From: Byssovorax sp.
Lineage (GTDB): Bacteria; Myxococcota_A; Polyangia; Polyangiales; Polyangiaceae
Length of the DNA: 64,000 nt
Assembly: GCA_025362495.1 (NCBI GenBank)
Contig: JANYGI010000061.1
Coordinates: 1-64,000 of the forward strand
Direction of reading: 5' to 3'
Both the position numbers and the translations under genes were made by a program. Under the pieces are notes generated by a model. That model saw only the letters and a list, made by a program, of their open reading frames with translations. It searched no databases and was not told where the DNA came from. This document shows positions 30,662-40,725 of this stretch, one piece after another (positions within the stretch are counted from its first letter, which is position 1; the number at the start of each line of letters is the position of its first letter).

Positions 30662-31264
30662 TCAACCGGTCGTGGCGCTCGCGGCGGCGATCTCGGCCTC
30701 GATCCCCGGCAACGCCTCGTCGATCCACCCCTGCACCTGCCGCGGAAACGGCCACATCCAGCCATAATCCGGCCCGGTGAACCGGTCCACGATCTGCGCG
30801 TGCAGCGCCGGATCCCGCGCGGCATCCATGCCTTCCAGCTCCGCCGTGGCCCGCAGCGTCTCGCGGTAGGCCTCCCACTCCAGCCGCGCGCGCCCGTAGG
30901 CGAGCCCCGCGGGCAGCGGGAAGAGGCCGTAGAGCAGGATCATCCCGAACCAGCCGAAGCGCTCGAACTGCGCCACGTGGACCAGCTCGTGGCGGAGCAC
31001 TTCCCAGGCGTGCGCCGGGTCCCAGTCGTGCCAACCGTCGGGCACGTAGATGGTGTGTCCCAGGGTCGTCACGTAGTGCGACAGATACCGATCCTGGCCG
31101 CCGAACGTGAGGATGCGCAGCGCGTGGTGGGAGGCGCGTTGATGCCAGTACACGCGCTTGATCACCACCCGCACCGGGCGGGCGCGGCAGGCCATCTCCA
31201 CGTGCAAGGCGTCGAGCCGGCGCTGGTTGCTCTCCGTATCGCCACCTCGAGTCGACTTCTTCAC
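30662..31264 (-). CDS. Zinc-metallopeptidase-like (HELVH) protein
   Basis: The protein has 200 residues. A zincin motif HELVH (His92, Glu93, His96) is followed by FERFGWFGM and, about 25 residues later, LEWEAYRETL, where a Glu could be the third ligand. The small size and context recall DUF4157-like putative peptidase domains. There is no signal peptide, but a hydrophobic stretch after the motif might associate with the membrane. It lies 43 bases downstream of the beta-lactamase/NamZ lipoprotein gene on the same strand. Proteolysis is plausible but unproven. Confidence 0.7.
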   Translation of the reverse strand: MKKSTRGGDTESNQRRLDALHVEMACRARPVRVVIKRVYWHQRASHHALRILTFGGQDRYLSHYVTTLGHTIYVPDGWHDWDPAHAWEVLRHELVHVAQFERFGWFGMILLYGLFPLPAGLAYGRARLEWEAYRETLRATAELEGMDAARDPALHAQIVDRFTGPDYGWMWPFPRQVQGWIDEALPGIEAEIAAASATTG

Positions 31265-31307: not shown

Positions 31308-33764
31308 TCACGGGTAGAGCAGGTAGCGCGCGCGCACGGCGGCGAACGCGGCGAGATCCGGCGCCCACGTGGCGACGATCTTCTCCACCGGATCGCCGCG
31401 CAGGAGGGCGTCGAACGTGGCCTGGTTGCCGAGGAGCAGGAGCAGCCCTTTCGGCTGGAAATCGCCTGGATACAGCGTGCCGAGAGCGCGCGCGATCGTC
31501 AGGCCGGCGCGGATCGGATCGAACGCGGGGCGATCGTCGATGTGGATCGCCACGCCCTCGCACGGCTTGCCGGCGAAGGTGCTGCTCGTCGGCGTGAACG
31601 TCGTCGCGGTGAACGTCACGCCGGGCAGGCCCGCGGCCGCGAGCGCGGCGGCGAGCTTCGCCCCCTGGATCCACGGGGCGCCGACGTGCTCGAACGGGAT
31701 CGGCGTGCCCCGACCGACGCTGACGTTGGTGGCCTCGAGCAGCGCTACACCCGGGTAAAGAAGCGCTTCGGTGACGCTCCGCAGGTTGGGTGAGGGGTTC
31801 TGCCAGACGAGGCCGGTGCGATCGAACGTGTCGCCGCGCCTCCAGCCTTCCATGGCGATCACCTGCAGATCTGCGCCGAGGCTGCGCTCGTGATTGAAGA
31901 GCTTCGCGAGCTCGCCCAGCGTCATCCCGTGGCGGATCGGGATCGGGTGGTAGCCGGTGAACGAGGTGCGCCCCGCGTCGAGCATCGGCCCCTCGACGCG
32001 CACCCCGTCGATGGGGTTCGGGCGATCGAGCACGACGAGGCGAATGTGGGCTTTCGCCGCGGTTTCCAGCAGATATCCCAGCGTCGTCGCGTAGGTGTAG
32101 AAGCGCGCGCCGGCGTCCTGGAGATCGAACACCAGGGTGTCGATCCCCGCGAGCTCGGCGTCGGTCGGCCGCGTGCGCTCGCCGTAGAGGCTGTAGATCG
32201 TTAGACCGCTGCGCTCGTCCTTGCCGTCGCGCACCGGGTGATCTTCCTCGCTGCGGAGGCCGTGCTCGGGGCTGAAGAGCGCGACGACGGTGACGCCGGG
32301 CGCGGCGCGGAGGGCGTCGATGGTGCTCGTGCCGCGGCGATCGCGGCCCGCGGCGTGGGTGATGAGGCCGATCTTGCGACCCTGGAGCTGCTTGAATCCA
32401 TCGCGCTCCAGCACGTCGATGCCGGTGAGCACCGAGCCCGTCGCCACGGCGCTCGTGATTGCAGCCGCGCGCGTCGCCTTCGCGAGCACGACGCCGCCGG
32501 CGCCCGTGCTGCGCGCGACGACGGTCGCCACCTCGCGACGGAGGCGGCGCACGTCGCCCTTTCCATCGGGGTAGAGCGCGCTCGACAGCACGACGACAGC
32601 CACGTTCCGGGTTGGATCGATCCACAGCGACGTGCCCGTGAACCCGGTGTGGCCGAAGCCCGCGAGCTCGCCGCGCGCGCCCGAGAAGCGCGTGTTGATG
32701 TCCCAGCCGAGGGCGCGCGTGCCGGCGTCGTCGGGCAGCGCGTGTGGCAGCGTGAGCGCGGCGACAGTGCTCGGGGCGAGGACGCGCGTGCCGCCGGCTT
32801 CGCCCTTGCCGAGCATCATCGTCGCGAAGCGGGCAACATCGTCCACGGTGGAGAACAGACCGGCGTGACCCGCGACGCCGCCGAGCGCGCGGGCCCGCGG
32901 ATCGTGCACGACGCCCTGCAAGAACGCGTCGCCCTCCTTCGCGGTGGGCGCCGCGCGGGCCGCGAGCGCCAGCGGCGGCGAGAACGTCGTGTCGCGCATG
33001 CCGAGCGGCGCGTAGAAATTCGCGCGCGCGAACGCGTCGAGCGGCATGCCCGAGAGCTTCTCCACCAGCGCGCCGAGCACCACGTACCCGAGATCGCTGT
33101 ACTCGAAGCGCGCGCCCGGATCGGCCTCGAGCGGCAGCGCCCCGATGCGGCGCAGCGCCTCCTCGCTCCCGCGCGAGAAATCCCCGACGCCGATGTCGGC
33201 GCGCAGCCCCGAGGTGTGCAGCAGCAATTGCTCCACCGTCACGGCCTCTTTCCCCTTCGATCCGAACACCGGGAGGTAGTGCGCGACGGGCGCCCCGAGG
33301 CTGAGCTTCTTCTGTTCGACGAGGAGCAAGATCGAAGGCGCGGCGGCGAGCGCCTTGGTCAGCGACGCCAGATCGAACACCGTATCGATCGCCATCGGCG
33401 CGTCGGGATCCTTCGTGCGAAGCCCGTAGGCCTTGTGAAAGACGATCTCCTGACCGCGCACGACGGCGACGGCCACGCCGGTCACGTCGCCGCGATCGAT
33501 GGCCTCGCGCACCACGTCGTCGAGGCTCCCGAGCTGGCCGACGGGCGGCGGAGGTGCCGGTCCGAGCTTCGGCGCGGCGGCATCCTCGACTGGCACCCTC
33601 GGCGCGTCCGCATCGGGAATCGCAGCGTCGATCGCGGCGTCAGCGTCGCTCGCGCCGGCGTCGACGATCGCTGCCGGCGTCGGCGCAGGCGGCGCCGGCG
33701 TGCTGCGCTGCGAGCAGCCGACGAGCGCCGCGAGGATGCCAATCGTGAGCGGACGCGACACCAT
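31308..33764 (-). CDS. Serine beta-lactamase-like domain fused to NamZ (DUF1343) lipoprotein
   Basis: The protein has 818 residues from the ATG at 33764. The lipobox is AALVGC (Cys17). Residues 80-440 form a class C beta-lactamase/DD-peptidase-like domain: SLTK (Ser134, Lys137), YSDLGYV in the YxN position, and HTGFTG in the KTG position. Residues 450-815 match exo-beta-N-acetylmuramidase NamZ (DUF1343): KIGLITHAAGRDRRG, LVFDLQDAGARFYTY, EATNVSVGRGT. The protein would sit in the periplasm or outer membrane and act on peptidoglycan fragments with both halves. It starts 1 base after the kinase/FGE gene, so the two are coupled. Confidence 0.9.
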   Translation of the reverse strand: MVSRPLTIGILAALVGCSQRSTPAPPAPTPAAIVDAGASDADAAIDAAIPDADAPRVPVEDAAAPKLGPAPPPPVGQLGSLDDVVREAIDRGDVTGVAVAVVRGQEIVFHKAYGLRTKDPDAPMAIDTVFDLASLTKALAAAPSILLLVEQKKLSLGAPVAHYLPVFGSKGKEAVTVEQLLLHTSGLRADIGVGDFSRGSEEALRRIGALPLEADPGARFEYSDLGYVVLGALVEKLSGMPLDAFARANFYAPLGMRDTTFSPPLALAARAAPTAKEGDAFLQGVVHDPRARALGGVAGHAGLFSTVDDVARFATMMLGKGEAGGTRVLAPSTVAALTLPHALPDDAGTRALGWDINTRFSGARGELAGFGHTGFTGTSLWIDPTRNVAVVVLSSALYPDGKGDVRRLRREVATVVARSTGAGGVVLAKATRAAAITSAVATGSVLTGIDVLERDGFKQLQGRKIGLITHAAGRDRRGTSTIDALRAAPGVTVVALFSPEHGLRSEEDHPVRDGKDERSGLTIYSLYGERTRPTDAELAGIDTLVFDLQDAGARFYTYATTLGYLLETAAKAHIRLVVLDRPNPIDGVRVEGPMLDAGRTSFTGYHPIPIRHGMTLGELAKLFNHERSLGADLQVIAMEGWRRGDTFDRTGLVWQNPSPNLRSVTEALLYPGVALLEATNVSVGRGTPIPFEHVGAPWIQGAKLAAALAAAGLPGVTFTATTFTPTSSTFAGKPCEGVAIHIDDRPAFDPIRAGLTIARALGTLYPGDFQPKGLLLLLGNQATFDALLRGDPVEKIVATWAPDLAAFAAVRARYLLYP

Positions 33765-33765
33765 C

Positions 33766-35511
33766 TCAGGGCAGGGGATCGCTGGCGCAGCGGAAGCCGA
33801 GATCGTCGTTCTTCGCGCCCTCGGGGTTGCGACCCTTCGGCTGGTCGCGCCAGCGCCAGCTCGGCCCGCGGGTCTCGCGGTAGCCGTGGGGCGCGACATC
33901 CGCGGACCACTCGAAGAGCGGACACGCGCGCTCGCCGGCCTGGCAGAGCGACGCTTGCGCCACGCCAGCGCCCCACTCGCGCATCGTCGGGAGGCGCTTC
34001 TTGTGGTTCGCGCAGTACAGCGTGGCGTCGCTCCAGGTCGCGCAGGTGATCGGGCTGTCGAGCATGCCGGCGCGGTTGGCGGTGCAGTTCTGCGCGTGCT
34101 CGGCGATCTCGGCCTCTTTCGCGCCGGGCCAGAACGCCGCCTTGGCGGCGTCGCACGGGCCGCCCTTGCAGTAGTCGCGCACGGTGACCTCGCTCTTGTC
34201 GAGGCAAAATCCAGGCGGTCCGGCGATCGCGACCATGCCCTCGGGGCAGCGCGGGAGGCCGACGACGGTGACGCCGGCCGGCATCGGCGCGTCGCGGTGA
34301 TCGACGCTCGGGCGGACGATCGCGCGCTGCGGCTCGGGGTTCGGCGGCTCTTCCATCGGCGCGGTCGGCATCGGCGCCGTGTCGGGCGGCATCGCGCTCT
34401 GCACGTTGACGAGGTGCGCGCGGGAGGGCCCTAGGTACGCATAGAGGAACGTCATCGCGAAGATCGCGCCGGCGCCGACGCCCATCGCGATGTAGTAGCG
34501 GCGCCCGAGCGGCGGCAGCGGCGGCTCGGCGTCGGCCCTGGCCTCGATCGCGTTCTGCCGCGCCACCTCGGCGACGACGGCGTCGCGCTCGCTCATCATC
34601 GTCGTGGTGCCCGGGAGCGGCGCGGGCGGGCGCGCCGGATCGGGGCGCGCCTTCTCGAGCAGCGCGCGGATCTCGCCGCCGTTCATGGCGCGCTTGCTCG
34701 CCCGGAGCGCGAGGCAGCGGCGGTACATCGGGGCGAGATCGTCGCCCGCGGCGTGGGGCCAGTCCTTGTCGCCTTCGCGCTCGCGGTACGCGACGATGAA
34801 GTCGCCCATCGACGCGTCGTCGGCGACGCCGGTCGGGTGACCGCCGCGGAGCAGCGCCCACGCGACGATGCCGAACGCGAACGAGTCGCGCTCGGCGCCG
34901 TCGCCGCCCTCTTTCCAGAAATTGGGATCGAGGATCTCCGGGGCGAGGTAATCGATGGTCCCGACGACGCCGCCGGTCTGCGTGAGCGGAGAGGGGTTGT
35001 TGGCCGCCGCCGCGATCCCGAAGTCGACCAGCTTCACCCCCGCAGCGTCCTCGGGGTGCGCGAGGAACGTGCGGGCGATCATCACGTTCTGAGGCTTCAG
35101 ATCCCGGTGAACCAGGCCCGCCTCGTGGATGTACCGGAGCGCGTCGGCGAGGTGGAGCAGGATCCAGAACCGGTGCTCCGGCGTGAGCTCTTTCGAGGGC
35201 ATCAGCTCGGCGAGCGAGCTCCCGGGCACGTAGTCGAGCGCGAAGCCGAGCACGTCCTTCTGCATGTCCTCGAAGAACGCGTGGCAGCGCGGGAGCGACG
35301 GGTGCGAGAGCCGGGCGAGCGCGCGGGCTTCGCGGCGGAGGCGATCGATCGCCGCGCCCGGCACGAGCAGCGGCGAGATCAGCTTGAGCGCGACCGTGGC
35401 GCCGCGGTGGAGCGGATCCTCCGCGCGCCAGACGCTGCCTTGCCCCCCTTCGCCGATGGGCGCGATGAGCCGATAGCGGTCGACGGTGTCGCCGGGGCGA
35501 AGCGATTGCAT
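33766..35511 (-). CDS. Ser/Thr kinase fused through a TM segment to an FGE-sulfatase domain
   Basis: The protein has 581 residues. The kinase domain (12-290) shows GEGGQGSVWRAED, VALKLIS, HRDLKPQNV, VDFGIA and LAPEI. A TM segment (YYIAMGVGAGAIFAMTFLYA) lies near 343-365. The periplasmic part (about 405-581) is an FGE-sulfatase (SUMF1-like) domain: CPEGMVAIAGPPGFCLDKSEVT, CATWSDATLYC, KRLPTMREW and GFRCASD. Such domains usually bind ligands or carry a formylglycine-generating fold; here it may be a sensor. It is next to the beta-lactamase/NamZ gene (1-base gap), so the kinase may sense wall fragments. Confidence 0.92.
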   Translation of the reverse strand: MQSLRPGDTVDRYRLIAPIGEGGQGSVWRAEDPLHRGATVALKLISPLLVPGAAIDRLRREARALARLSHPSLPRCHAFFEDMQKDVLGFALDYVPGSSLAELMPSKELTPEHRFWILLHLADALRYIHEAGLVHRDLKPQNVMIARTFLAHPEDAAGVKLVDFGIAAAANNPSPLTQTGGVVGTIDYLAPEILDPNFWKEGGDGAERDSFAFGIVAWALLRGGHPTGVADDASMGDFIVAYREREGDKDWPHAAGDDLAPMYRRCLALRASKRAMNGGEIRALLEKARPDPARPPAPLPGTTTMMSERDAVVAEVARQNAIEARADAEPPLPPLGRRYYIAMGVGAGAIFAMTFLYAYLGPSRAHLVNVQSAMPPDTAPMPTAPMEEPPNPEPQRAIVRPSVDHRDAPMPAGVTVVGLPRCPEGMVAIAGPPGFCLDKSEVTVRDYCKGGPCDAAKAAFWPGAKEAEIAEHAQNCTANRAGMLDSPITCATWSDATLYCANHKKRLPTMREWGAGVAQASLCQAGERACPLFEWSADVAPHGYRETRGPSWRWRDQPKGRNPEGAKNDDLGFRCASDPLP

Positions 35512-36330: not shown

Positions 36331-37146
36331 TCAGCCTCCGAACGCCGAGAAGCGCTTCACGCCGCTGCGGAACGCGAGGATGGCCGCGGCGCCGGCGCCG
36401 AGCACGTAGGCCCACTGGATGCCGAGCTCGCCCACGATGGCCTCGCCGCGGAGGGTGCCTGTGAAGATCTCGACCGGGAAGGCGATGACATAGCGGAAGG
36501 GCAGCGCGTGAATCACGCCGCGCAACGCCGCGGGAAACAGCTCGAGCGGGACGAGGTAGCCCGAGAGGAGCATGAACGCGACCATCCACAGATCGAAGAT
36601 CGCCGTCGAGCTCTCGAGGTAGAACGCGATCGAGCCGATCAGCGCCATGGTGAAGAAGTTGATCAGCCAGGCGCCGAGGATCGCGAGCAGACCGGCGCCG
36701 AGCGCGAGCGGGCTGCGCGGGAACGCCCCGGGCTCGAGCACCACCAGCCAGACGACGGCCGCGGGCAGCGTCATCGCGAAGCGGAGCGGGATCGCCGCGA
36801 GGTTCTGCGCGCTGTAGGTGATGAGCGGATGGATCGGCCGCAAGAGTCGGCGCGAGAGCGTGCCGCTCCTGATCTCCTGGTTCAGCTCCCACACCAGCCA
36901 CGATCCGGTGAGCTGCCGGACGAGCAGCGTCGCCAGGAAATAGGCCGCGAAGCCGCGCTGGGTGAAGCGCCCGACCGGCGCCGTCTCGGCGACGGCCGAC
37001 CACAGCGCGAGGCTGACGAGGGGCATCGTCGTCGTCAGCATCCACACGAGCATCTCGGCGCGGTACGCCACGGCCTCGGCCAGGCCCACGCGGAGCAGCG
37101 TGGGGTACGCGCGGACGACGCGGCGGAGATCGGCGCGCGCGCTCAT
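36331..37146 (-). CDS. ABC-2 type permease
   Basis: The protein has 271 residues with about six TM segments. The blocks AEAVAYRAEMLVWMLTTTMP, NQEIRSGTLSRRLLRPIHPL and LSGYLVPLELFPAALRG are typical of ABC-2 exporter permeases. The ATG overlaps the stop of the ATPase gene (ATGA at 37143-37146). It forms a heteromeric exporter with the permease at 35533 and the ATPase at 37143. Confidence 0.9.
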   Translation of the reverse strand: MSARADLRRVVRAYPTLLRVGLAEAVAYRAEMLVWMLTTTMPLVSLALWSAVAETAPVGRFTQRGFAAYFLATLLVRQLTGSWLVWELNQEIRSGTLSRRLLRPIHPLITYSAQNLAAIPLRFAMTLPAAVVWLVVLEPGAFPRSPLALGAGLLAILGAWLINFFTMALIGSIAFYLESSTAIFDLWMVAFMLLSGYLVPLELFPAALRGVIHALPFRYVIAFPVEIFTGTLRGEAIVGELGIQWAYVLGAGAAAILAFRSGVKRFSAFGG

Positions 37147-38174: not shown

Positions 38175-38322
38175 GGACGGCGGAGCCTAGCACCGGCCCT
38201 GGCGGGCGAGCGCGTGCGTGCGTGCGCTCCACGCCTCGCGCCCGCGGTCGATCGTGAAACGTTGTTAAGCCTCCCGTTGCAGCGGAGTGCGTCCGGCCGC
38301 GGTTGGGCTACGCTCGGCCGCG

Positions 38323-40725
38323 ATGGTCGACCCCGCCGCGCGCACGCCCTTCGCGGAGCCCGAGCCCGTATCGCACGAGGGCGAGACGATGATCGCCCCG
38401 CTCGTCGGATCGCCGGTCGAGAGCGTCGCGGGAGCGTCGTCCGGCGTGAGCGGCCCGCTGCTGGCGAGCCGCTACGAGATCCTCGGCCTCATCGGCGTCG
38501 GCGGGATGGGCAGCGTCTACCGCGCCCGCGATCGCGAGCTCGAAGAGCTGGTCGCGCTCAAGGTGCTCCGCAAGGATCTGGTGAGCACGCCGGGGATGCT
38601 CGATCGCTTCCGGCGCGAGGTGAAGCTCGCGCGCCGGGTCACCCACCGCAACGTGGCGCGCGTGTTCGACATCGGCGAGCACCAGGGCGACAAGTTCCTC
38701 ACGATGGAGCTCGTCGACGGCGAGTCGCTCGGGGCCCTCGTCGCGCGCGAGGGCGCGCTGCCGCTCGCGCGCGTGGCGGAGCTCGCCGCGGGCATCTGCG
38801 CGGGGCTCACGAGCGCGCACGCGGCCGGCGTGGTTCACCGCGATCTCAAGCCCGACAACGTGCTCATCGCCTCGGATGGCCGGGTGGTCCTCACCGACTT
38901 CGGCATCGCGCGCGCGTTCACCGACGCCGGCGCCGGGAGCACGATGGGGCTGCTCGTGGGCACGCCCGCGTACATGGCCCCCGAGCAGGTCGAGGGGCAC
39001 CGCGAGATCGACGCGCGCGCCGACATCTACGCGCTCGGCGTGGTGCTCTACGAGCTGGTCACGGGCCGCCGCGCCTGGCCCGGCGAGTCGCCGCTCGCGG
39101 TCGCCGCCGCGCGCCTGCTCGCCGATCCGCCGGACCCGCGCCGCGTGTGCCCGGGCCTCCCCGATCCGATGGCGTCGCTGGTGCTCCGCTGCATGGCACG
39201 CCGCCGCGACGATCGCTTCGCGACGGTCGACGACGTGGTCGCCGCGCTGAGCACGGTCACCTGGACCAGCCTGCCGCTCGGGCCCGCCGCGCCGCCGCGC
39301 GACGCCGCGACGGTGGTGTCGGTGCTGCCCGCGTCGGCCCGATCCGACAAGACGGTGGCTGTCTTGCCGTTCCGCAACGCCGGTCCGGCCGAGGACGACT
39401 ACCTCGCGGCCGAGCTCACGGACGACCTCATCGACAGCCTCTCGATGACGCGCGGCCTCAAGGTGCGCTCGCGCGGCGTGGTCCTCGGCCACGCGGGATC
39501 CTCGCAAGATCCCCGAGAAATCGGCCGCGATCTCGGCGTGCAGGTCGTGGTCGAGGGCTCGGTGCGGCGGGCCCGCGGGAGCGTGCGGATCAGCGCGCGG
39601 CTGATCAGCGTGGCCGATGGATTCCAGCTCTGGGCCAAGCGCTTCGATCGCCCCGAGCAGGACGTGCTCTCGATCAACGACGAGGCGGCCCACGCCATCG
39701 CCGAGGCGCTGACGCTCGATCGCGAGGCCCCGGCGCGCGAGGCCCCGAGCAGCCCCGAGGCCGTCGATCTCTACCTGCGCGCGCGCCACGAGTACCGGAA
39801 GTTCTGGCAGCAAGATCAGGAGCGCGCGCTCGCGCTCTACGCGCAGGCCGAGGCCCTCGCGCCCGGCGACGCGATGATCCTCTCGGGCAAGGCCCTCGCG
39901 CTCTCACGGCACTCGTTCTTCACGGGCCGCGGCGTGGCCGAAGCGCGGGCCTCCGCCGATCAGGCCGTCGCCGCCGCCCCGAACCTCGCGGAGGCCCGCC
40001 TCGCCCTCGGATCGGTGCTGCTCCAGCAGGGCGAGTGGGTGCCCGCCGTGCGCGAGCTCCGCCAGGCGCTGAGCCGCGGCCCCGGCATCGCCGAGACCCA
40101 CGCCGCCGTCGGCCGAGTGCTGCTCGAGGTCGGCGATCTCGACGAGGCCGCGCGCCGCCTCGAGGCCGCGATCGGCCTCGATCCGCGCGCTCCCCTCGCG
40201 GTCGAGGCCCTGGTGCGCTGCCACGCGCTCCGCGGCGAGATCGCGATCGTCGATCGGCTGATCGCGACCACGATCACGGCGAAGGAAGACTCGGCCTTCT
40301 GGACGACGCGCGCCCGGATGTTCATCTGGCGCCGCGATCAGGCCGGCGCGGCGGCCCTGCTCGCCGACTTGCTCGCCTTCGATCCCAACCTGCTCGTCGC
40401 CAAGCTCATGCTCAGCATCGTCGCGCACCGGCGGATCCCGACCGAGATGCGCGAGCGGCAGATCATCGCGGTCGAGTCCGTCGGCGGCCTGCGTCGGCGC
40501 ACGTTCTTCATGCAGATGGAGGCCGAGACCAACGCCTACCTCGGCGAGACCGAGGCCGCGTTCCTGAGCATGAAGCGCTGCGCCGACGGCGGCCTCATCG
40601 ATCTCGGGTGGATCGATCACTGCCCGCTGCTCGACGAGCTCCGCCTCGATCCGCGCTTCCCCGCCGTGCGCGCCGTGGTGAAGCAGCGCGCCGACGAGAT
40701 CCTCCACGCCTACCGCGTCGGCTGA
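38323..40725 (+). CDS. Ser/Thr kinase with TolB-like domain and TPR repeats
   Basis: The protein has 800 residues from the ATG at 38323. Kinase domain (about 47-310): GVGGMGSVYRARD, VALKVL, HRDLKPDNV, TDFGIA, YMAPEQ. A domain at about 345-465 (KTVAVLPFRNAGPAEDDYLA ... IGRDLGVQVVVEGSVRRARG) is the TolB/FlgO-like module found after adenylate cyclases and CadC-type regulators. TPR-like helical repeats fill 480-760. No TM segment was seen, so it is a cytoplasmic signalling protein with protein-binding repeats. It is divergent from the ABC operon and ends in a shared terminator with the next, convergent gene. Confidence 0.92.
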   Translation: MVDPAARTPFAEPEPVSHEGETMIAPLVGSPVESVAGASSGVSGPLLASRYEILGLIGVGGMGSVYRARDRELEELVALKVLRKDLVSTPGMLDRFRREVKLARRVTHRNVARVFDIGEHQGDKFLTMELVDGESLGALVAREGALPLARVAELAAGICAGLTSAHAAGVVHRDLKPDNVLIASDGRVVLTDFGIARAFTDAGAGSTMGLLVGTPAYMAPEQVEGHREIDARADIYALGVVLYELVTGRRAWPGESPLAVAAARLLADPPDPRRVCPGLPDPMASLVLRCMARRRDDRFATVDDVVAALSTVTWTSLPLGPAAPPRDAATVVSVLPASARSDKTVAVLPFRNAGPAEDDYLAAELTDDLIDSLSMTRGLKVRSRGVVLGHAGSSQDPREIGRDLGVQVVVEGSVRRARGSVRISARLISVADGFQLWAKRFDRPEQDVLSINDEAAHAIAEALTLDREAPAREAPSSPEAVDLYLRARHEYRKFWQQDQERALALYAQAEALAPGDAMILSGKALALSRHSFFTGRGVAEARASADQAVAAAPNLAEARLALGSVLLQQGEWVPAVRELRQALSRGPGIAETHAAVGRVLLEVGDLDEAARRLEAAIGLDPRAPLAVEALVRCHALRGEIAIVDRLIATTITAKEDSAFWTTRARMFIWRRDQAGAAALLADLLAFDPNLLVAKLMLSIVAHRRIPTEMRERQIIAVESVGGLRRRTFFMQMEAETNAYLGETEAAFLSMKRCADGGLIDLGWIDHCPLLDELRLDPRFPAVRAVVKQRADEILHAYRVG

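Follow-up and report, generated by a model that had tools for sequence, protein, structure and literature searches.

A lipoprotein gene in the 64,000-nucleotide stretch of Byssovorax sp. DNA analyzed here (the window, in contig C126 of a 10.8-Mb host genome) joins a serine beta-lactamase-fold domain of family S12 to a NamZ exo-beta-N-acetylmuramidase domain. We interpret its product, with a probability of roughly 0.72, as a bifunctional, lipid-anchored, exo-acting peptidoglycan hydrolase that would combine peptide removal with MurNAc release and that does not have the adjacent kinase as a conserved partner. In the proposed mechanism, the S12 domain, putatively of the YfeW/PBP4B clade, would remove or trim the stem peptide on MurNAc, and the NamZ domain, presumably acting second, would then free MurNAc from the non-reducing end of the glycan; AmiE of Bacillus subtilis is the likely functional analogue of the S12 domain. 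The protein is a real fusion of an already known architecture, tabulated in 2008, and the neighboring kinase is most likely no partner of it. In a literature search of partial coverage, we recognized no work on the function of an S12-NamZ fusion.

The fusion lipoprotein and its domains

The initial annotation had described a lipoprotein with both S12 and NamZ domains, and Pfam profiles bore out the domains and the coordinates of the gene (31308-33764, minus strand, 818 aa). We placed the start at 33764 on the evidence of the lipobox and of the gene boundary; the corresponding frame in the ORF list opens at 33899. Codon-position GC indicated that both the fusion and the kinase ORFs are coding. 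Judged by eye, the N-terminus is lipobox-like (MVSRPLTIGILAALVGC-S), i.e., a signal peptide (33714-33764, minus strand) with the lipobox L-V-G-C, in which the cysteine is Cys 17, and a serine at +2; a lipid-anchored protein, presumably placed in the outer membrane, is predicted. Only 14 of 45 relatives matched a simple lipobox pattern, so lipoprotein status may not be general among them.

Both domains and their intact motifs were observed directly. The Beta-lactamase/S12 domain (PF00144, 251 bits) spans residues 81-409 (32538-33524, minus strand) and contains S134-x-x-K137, Y222-S-D224, and H372-T-G374. The NamZ region (residues 465-817; 31314-32372, minus strand), with E500-H501-G502, consists of NamZ_N (PF07075, residues 465-664, 262 bits, profile positions 1-202 of 203) and NamZ_C (PF20732, residues 668-817, 158 bits, profile positions 1-152 of 152), both over cut-off and full length, so the protein belongs to NamZ by its domains. 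The closest solved chain to the NamZ half was 4k05 (E 5.7e-68), a Bacteroides fragilis DUF1343 structure that was also its top Foldseek match (35% identity). In an alignment of 46 fusions (that of the window, 30 from its family, and 15 from other phyla), E500-H501-G502 was invariant in all 46 rows, and from these conserved residues the NamZ domain is read as a predicted releaser of MurNAc from the non-reducing end. Possible loss of the S12 active residues in orthologues had been a concern of the initial annotation; S134, K137, Y222, D224, H372, and G374 were identical in 46/46 rows. A fold model of the fusion, built from 14 sequences, gave a mean pLDDT of 79.1 with a low-confidence linker at 421-443, and its pTM of 0.52 leaves the mutual orientation of the S12 and NamZ domains unfixed.

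Identity of the S12 domain

The catalytic motifs of S12 enzymes are Ser-x-x-Lys, Tyr, and H/K-x-G, and this set is present in the fusion. Class C beta-lactamases carry Y-x-N and K-T-G at the places where the S12 domain has Y-S-D and H-T-G, and a role in beta-lactam resistance, considered as a first reading, was dropped because the NCBIfam class C model scored far under its cut-off (51.5 vs. 415 bits). The best NCBIfam model was that of PBP4B (162 bits, under the cut-off of 385; next best 99). Aligned over 383 columns, the domain is 32% identical to Escherichia coli YfeW (PBP4B), with YSD and GHTG(F/W)TG common to both, and E. coli yfeW comes after murQ-murP. However, YfeW is a stand-alone protein, lacks a NamZ domain, and has SNTK where the fusion has SLTK.

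Considering that the S12 family also includes esterases, carboxypeptidases, and DL-peptidases, the domain could be an esterase or a DD/DL-peptidase and not a MurNAc-L-Ala amidase, in which case a different bond would be trimmed and NamZ would still free MurNAc. We regard this alternative as tenable but somewhat doubtful. Among S12 structures, the top Foldseek ranks went to EstG and other esterases (family VIII), and the replacement of Y-x-N and K-T-G by Y-S-D and H-T-G points the same way. Moreover, YfeW is called a low-affinity penicillin-binding protein in the excerpted text of PMC5061867. Against this, the NCBIfam scores lie nearest to PBP4B/YfeW and not to esterases, and both the salvage cluster described below and fusions to GH3 favor a muropeptide substrate. 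Among the Bacteroidota matches, which have the S12 domain at the end of long frames, two of four scanned frames carried GH3 fused to it (GH3 first; L127 and L131), and no GH3 match was found in the other two scanned (L140 and L153). RmNag3 likewise unites a glycan exo-hydrolase with a beta-lactamase domain and has a proposed role in peptidoglycan turnover, but its hydrolase is a GH3 N-acetylglucosaminidase instead of NamZ and its beta-lactamase domain is C-terminal, in reversed order (PMC6987092, in excerpt). We infer amidase specificity for the S12 domain and retain peptide removal followed by MurNAc release as the preferred reading.

As for B. subtilis, we take AmiE to be a PF00144 protein and ybbC to be namZ. 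In the B. subtilis MurNAc cluster, amiE, nagZ, and ybbC adjoin, and AmiE and then NagZ act outside the cell on muropeptides (PMC5061867, in excerpt); like enzyme classes are thus brought together in both cases, but B. subtilis has separate genes accompanied by murQRP, whereas in the window two of the enzymes share one protein and no family genome of the 98 searched has MurQ over its cut-off. B. subtilis NamZ is also mentioned in the available part of PMC10936207, which cites the founding NamZ paper by title. The same Pfam pair, PF00144 with PF07075 in one protein, was tabulated as the DDPept-DUF1343 architecture in a serine-protease survey published in 2008 (PMC2605481, in excerpt). That entry concerned one protein with the label 'cell wall biosynthesis', while the present fusion has been traced over four phyla and placed in a tree and a salvage cluster.

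Spread and age of the fusion

Besides that of the window, we read 57 distinct fusion loci, of which 30 come from the family, 12 from the rest of the phylum, and 15 from three other phyla (7 Acidobacteriota, 4 Planctomycetota, and 4 Verrucomicrobiota, from 55 loci); the family and other-phyla loci had filled 46 rows, in which one genome appeared twice, and L115 was excluded because its contig carries only the NamZ part. The 12 phylum loci from outside the family come from among the matches listed, and in 12/12 both domains lay in one stop-free frame. Fused frames occurred in at least 31 of 98 family genomes with the host's own included, i.e., at least 30 of 97 others, and four of the family fusions required a frame check owing to a truncated or split match.

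In a midpoint-rooted NamZ tree of 57 rows, from which the truncated fusions L057 and L058 and the 12 phylum loci were left out, 44 fused rows and the contig-edge fragment L115 (labeled 'alone') formed one group with support of 94/92, slightly below what the program counts as a firm branch. Stand-alone NamZ forms fell outside the fused group. Since groups in the tree mostly track phyla, the sequences are consistent with one old fusion common to Myxococcota, Acidobacteriota, Planctomycetota, and Verrucomicrobiota.

Several other arrangements were seen along the way. The host genome has a second, stand-alone NamZ gene (L064:9696-10904) that forms a separate lineage outside the fused group. The Pirellula fusions L106:6969-8186 and L114:3114-4640 are each directly followed by a second NamZ gene. 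One family genome (G058, C1:1898818-1901265, in L061) has NamZ and then S12 as neighboring same-strand matches, apparently unfused, together with a fused copy elsewhere, and G078 looks alike.

A MurNAc salvage cluster in Acidobacteriota

In two closely related Acidobacteriota MAGs (L107 and L108), the fusion comes after a LysR gene, and a PF01869 sugar kinase lies on the other strand. Beyond this kinase and on the same strand as it, the cluster in L108 (L108:5-15626) holds a TonB-type protein, MurQ (375 vs. a cut-off of 302 bits), a sodium symporter (200 vs. 184), and a GH3 protein, and downstream of the fusion there follow an outer-membrane barrel and NagA (276 vs. 226); the GH3 and PF01869 proteins scored under the best NCBIfam cut-offs. 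In L107, where the cluster is cut by its contig, MurQ, the PF01869 kinase, and LysR were confirmed, and the symporter and a truncated GH3 frame were recognized only by visual comparison. Tannerella has a MurNAc kinase, MurK, that belongs to PF01869 (PMC5790795, in excerpt), and in the planctomycete L101 a nearby PF01869 kinase was the sole salvage-type neighbor. Across 30 fusion loci, which gave 111 neighbor proteins, 85 of them scanned, few families were in common, so that the salvage context consists of the two MAGs and L101. MurQ itself was over its cut-off in 8 of the 15 fusion genomes outside the phylum, under it but strong in 3, and weak or missing in 4.

Fate of MurNAc in the family of the window

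The initial annotation had also spoken of recycling of wall fragments. The salvage-type character of the enzyme is upheld by its conserved residues and by the Acidobacteriota cluster; recycling in the host's own family fares less well, since MurQ was over cut-off in 0/98 family genomes (weak matches in 93, best 46 bits; controls over cut-off 5/14) and AnmK was found in 0/98 (controls 5/14). Released MurNAc is therefore left with no recognized route in the family, and ordinary E. coli-type recycling is disfavored there. Matches covering the NamZ part are present in many of the same 98 genomes (among the matches listed). MurU was over its cut-off in 0/98 family genomes and 0/14 controls; because the controls failed as well, the search is uninformative about this alternative MurNAc route, and the genes around six MurU matches look, by eye, like other nucleotide-sugar genes. 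PF01869 was rejected as a sign of MurK in the family, its matches occurring in 86 of the 98 genomes, many in very long frames (one of the two in G000 sits in a 1308-aa frame).

In the window's myxobacterium, the fusion more likely helps to degrade wall glycan, whether foreign or the cell's own, than to recycle it in the E. coli manner. A more specific proposal is that in this family the lipoprotein is a tool of predation that digests the wall glycan of prey, the products of which are not recycled as sugar phosphates. The results for MurQ and AnmK agree with it. NamZ, moreover, we take to be GH171. Since GH171 genes are reported to be among the families for wall degradation in MAGs of predatory Myxococcota (PMC11937823, in excerpt), digestion of prey walls is a reasonable alternative. 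Nevertheless, we consider such a predatory role rather unlikely, because other phyla have this fusion as well, with MurQ also present in several of those genomes.

The adjacent kinase and its FGE-like tail

A membrane Ser/Thr kinase gene of 581 codons (33766-35511, minus strand) precedes the fusion, and its stop TGA is separated by one G from the fusion ATG, exactly as the initial annotation had it. The Pkinase domain (PF00069, residues 13-274, 121 bits) has the HRD, DFG, and lysine motifs, and inspection by eye suggests a membrane span in the hydrophobic stretch that starts at residue 339. The C-terminal tail (33769-34260, minus strand; 164 aa used as query) contains a partial FGE-sulfatase match (PF03781, residues 433-516, 42.7 bits vs. 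a cut-off of 23.3, profile positions 35-121 of 255), and its last 38 residues align with human FGE chains. In human FGE, the segment RSYCYRYRC near the C-terminus presumably holds the two catalytic cysteines; the kinase tail reads RGPSWRWRD at this place and is missing ~79 core residues. FGE enzyme activity of the tail was rejected because both catalytic cysteines are missing. With FGE catalysis lost, the tail can be a ligand-binding domain and is hardly an FGE enzyme, judging from its residues. The orthologue in Minicystis rosea (G038) has RGPSFRYLT there, likewise without cysteine, and the tail of a second relative, G029, has cysteines near the equivalent place (RVTCSGATGTCDG).

On the minus strand, the gene order is ABC exporter ATPase (PF00005, 37143-38174), two ABC-2 permease subunits (PF06182/PF01061, 36331-37146, with the start at 37146 set by eye from the frame; and PF06182, 35533-36321, 21 bp upstream of the kinase), kinase, fusion, and, 43 bp downstream of the fusion, a 200-aa ORF with an HELVH motif (30662-31264). 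The HELVH ORF matched no Pfam family over cut-off (eCIS_core, E = 0.0022, was under it) and had no match near the other 57 fusions. A plus-strand kinase with TPR repeats (38287-40725) lies divergently from the exporter genes, with its ORF start ~110 bp away.

The kinase had been proposed to form a sensing unit with the fusion, a proposal that the gene order in the relatives sampled does not support. Upstream sequence of at least 1.5 kb was readable at 51 of the 57 other fusion loci and 0.5 to 1.5 kb at the remaining six. Neither the FGE tail nor the two permeases had a match at any of the 57, the readable sequence up to 4 kb from the S12 domain contained no same-strand match to the kinase domain, and weak ATPase matches were seen at 1/57. 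The nearest kinase match, in G262, lies 1.9 kb upstream of the fusion on the opposite strand and is without the tail; it is followed in distance by an opposite-strand match at 4.3 kb and a same-strand one at 5.0 kb. A search with the whole kinase over 183 genomes of the order (182 others; best 7 candidates per genome scored, E up to 1e-60) aligned kinase and tail together only in G038 (53%) and G029 (40%) besides the window. With up to 37 candidates scored per genome, the tail alone gave the same two best relatives, and 92 of the 98 genomes of the family had weak FGE-domain matches. In M. rosea DSM 24000, assigned to Polyangiaceae by its authors (PMC8436480, in excerpt), the best orthologues of both genes lie ~131 kb apart (5' side of the kinase at 8.309 Mb, start of the fusion at 8.441 Mb), and in G029 the kinase is apart from both the fusion and the exporter.

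A link to the exporter, likewise suggested by the initial annotation, finds slightly more support. The M. rosea kinase comes after an orthologue (71%) of the second permease gene, but this was the only such case in 29 exporter loci. These loci were read from the 33 other family genomes with an exporter match; the second permease had the ATPase and first permease beside it in 21, the first permease only in 1, and neither in 7, and the exporter locus of G033 matched a kinase other than this one, encoded on the opposite strand. Taken together, the counts from the two sides indicate that the kinase-exporter contact is common to two genera and the kinase-fusion contact to none sampled.

A lineage-specific sensing unit could be imagined nevertheless, in which kinase, fusion, and exporter form a translationally coupled operon in one genus and a wall fragment produced by the fusion is the ligand of the FGE-fold tail. 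The TGA-G-ATG spacing together with the 21 bp to the exporter gene makes an operon plausible, the kinase catalytic motifs are intact, the non-catalytic tail is a possible binding domain, and the host genome alone represented the window's genus among the 98 family genomes searched. We judge such a unit improbable, however, given the lack, at all 57 other fusion loci, of the tail and of any same-strand kinase closer than 4 kb, the separation of the two orthologues in M. rosea, full-length kinase relatives in 2/182 other genomes of the order (best 7 candidates each), and nothing found that ties the tail to wall fragments. Most likely, the kinase stands beside the fusion through a local rearrangement and is not a conserved partner. 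Highly improbable, in our estimate, is an undescribed pathway in which the family's MurNAc salvage or prey-wall route starts at the fusion without MurQ or AnmK and, in one genus, is also under a kinase whose FGE-fold tail reads a wall fragment.

Therefore, the contact with the kinase should not be taken for a conserved signaling unit. The myxobacterial family keeps a predicted MurNAc-releasing enzyme, yet the best-known MurNAc-using enzymes were not found in it, which presents a testable gap, and the salvage cluster in Acidobacteriota points to a function for this widespread fusion.
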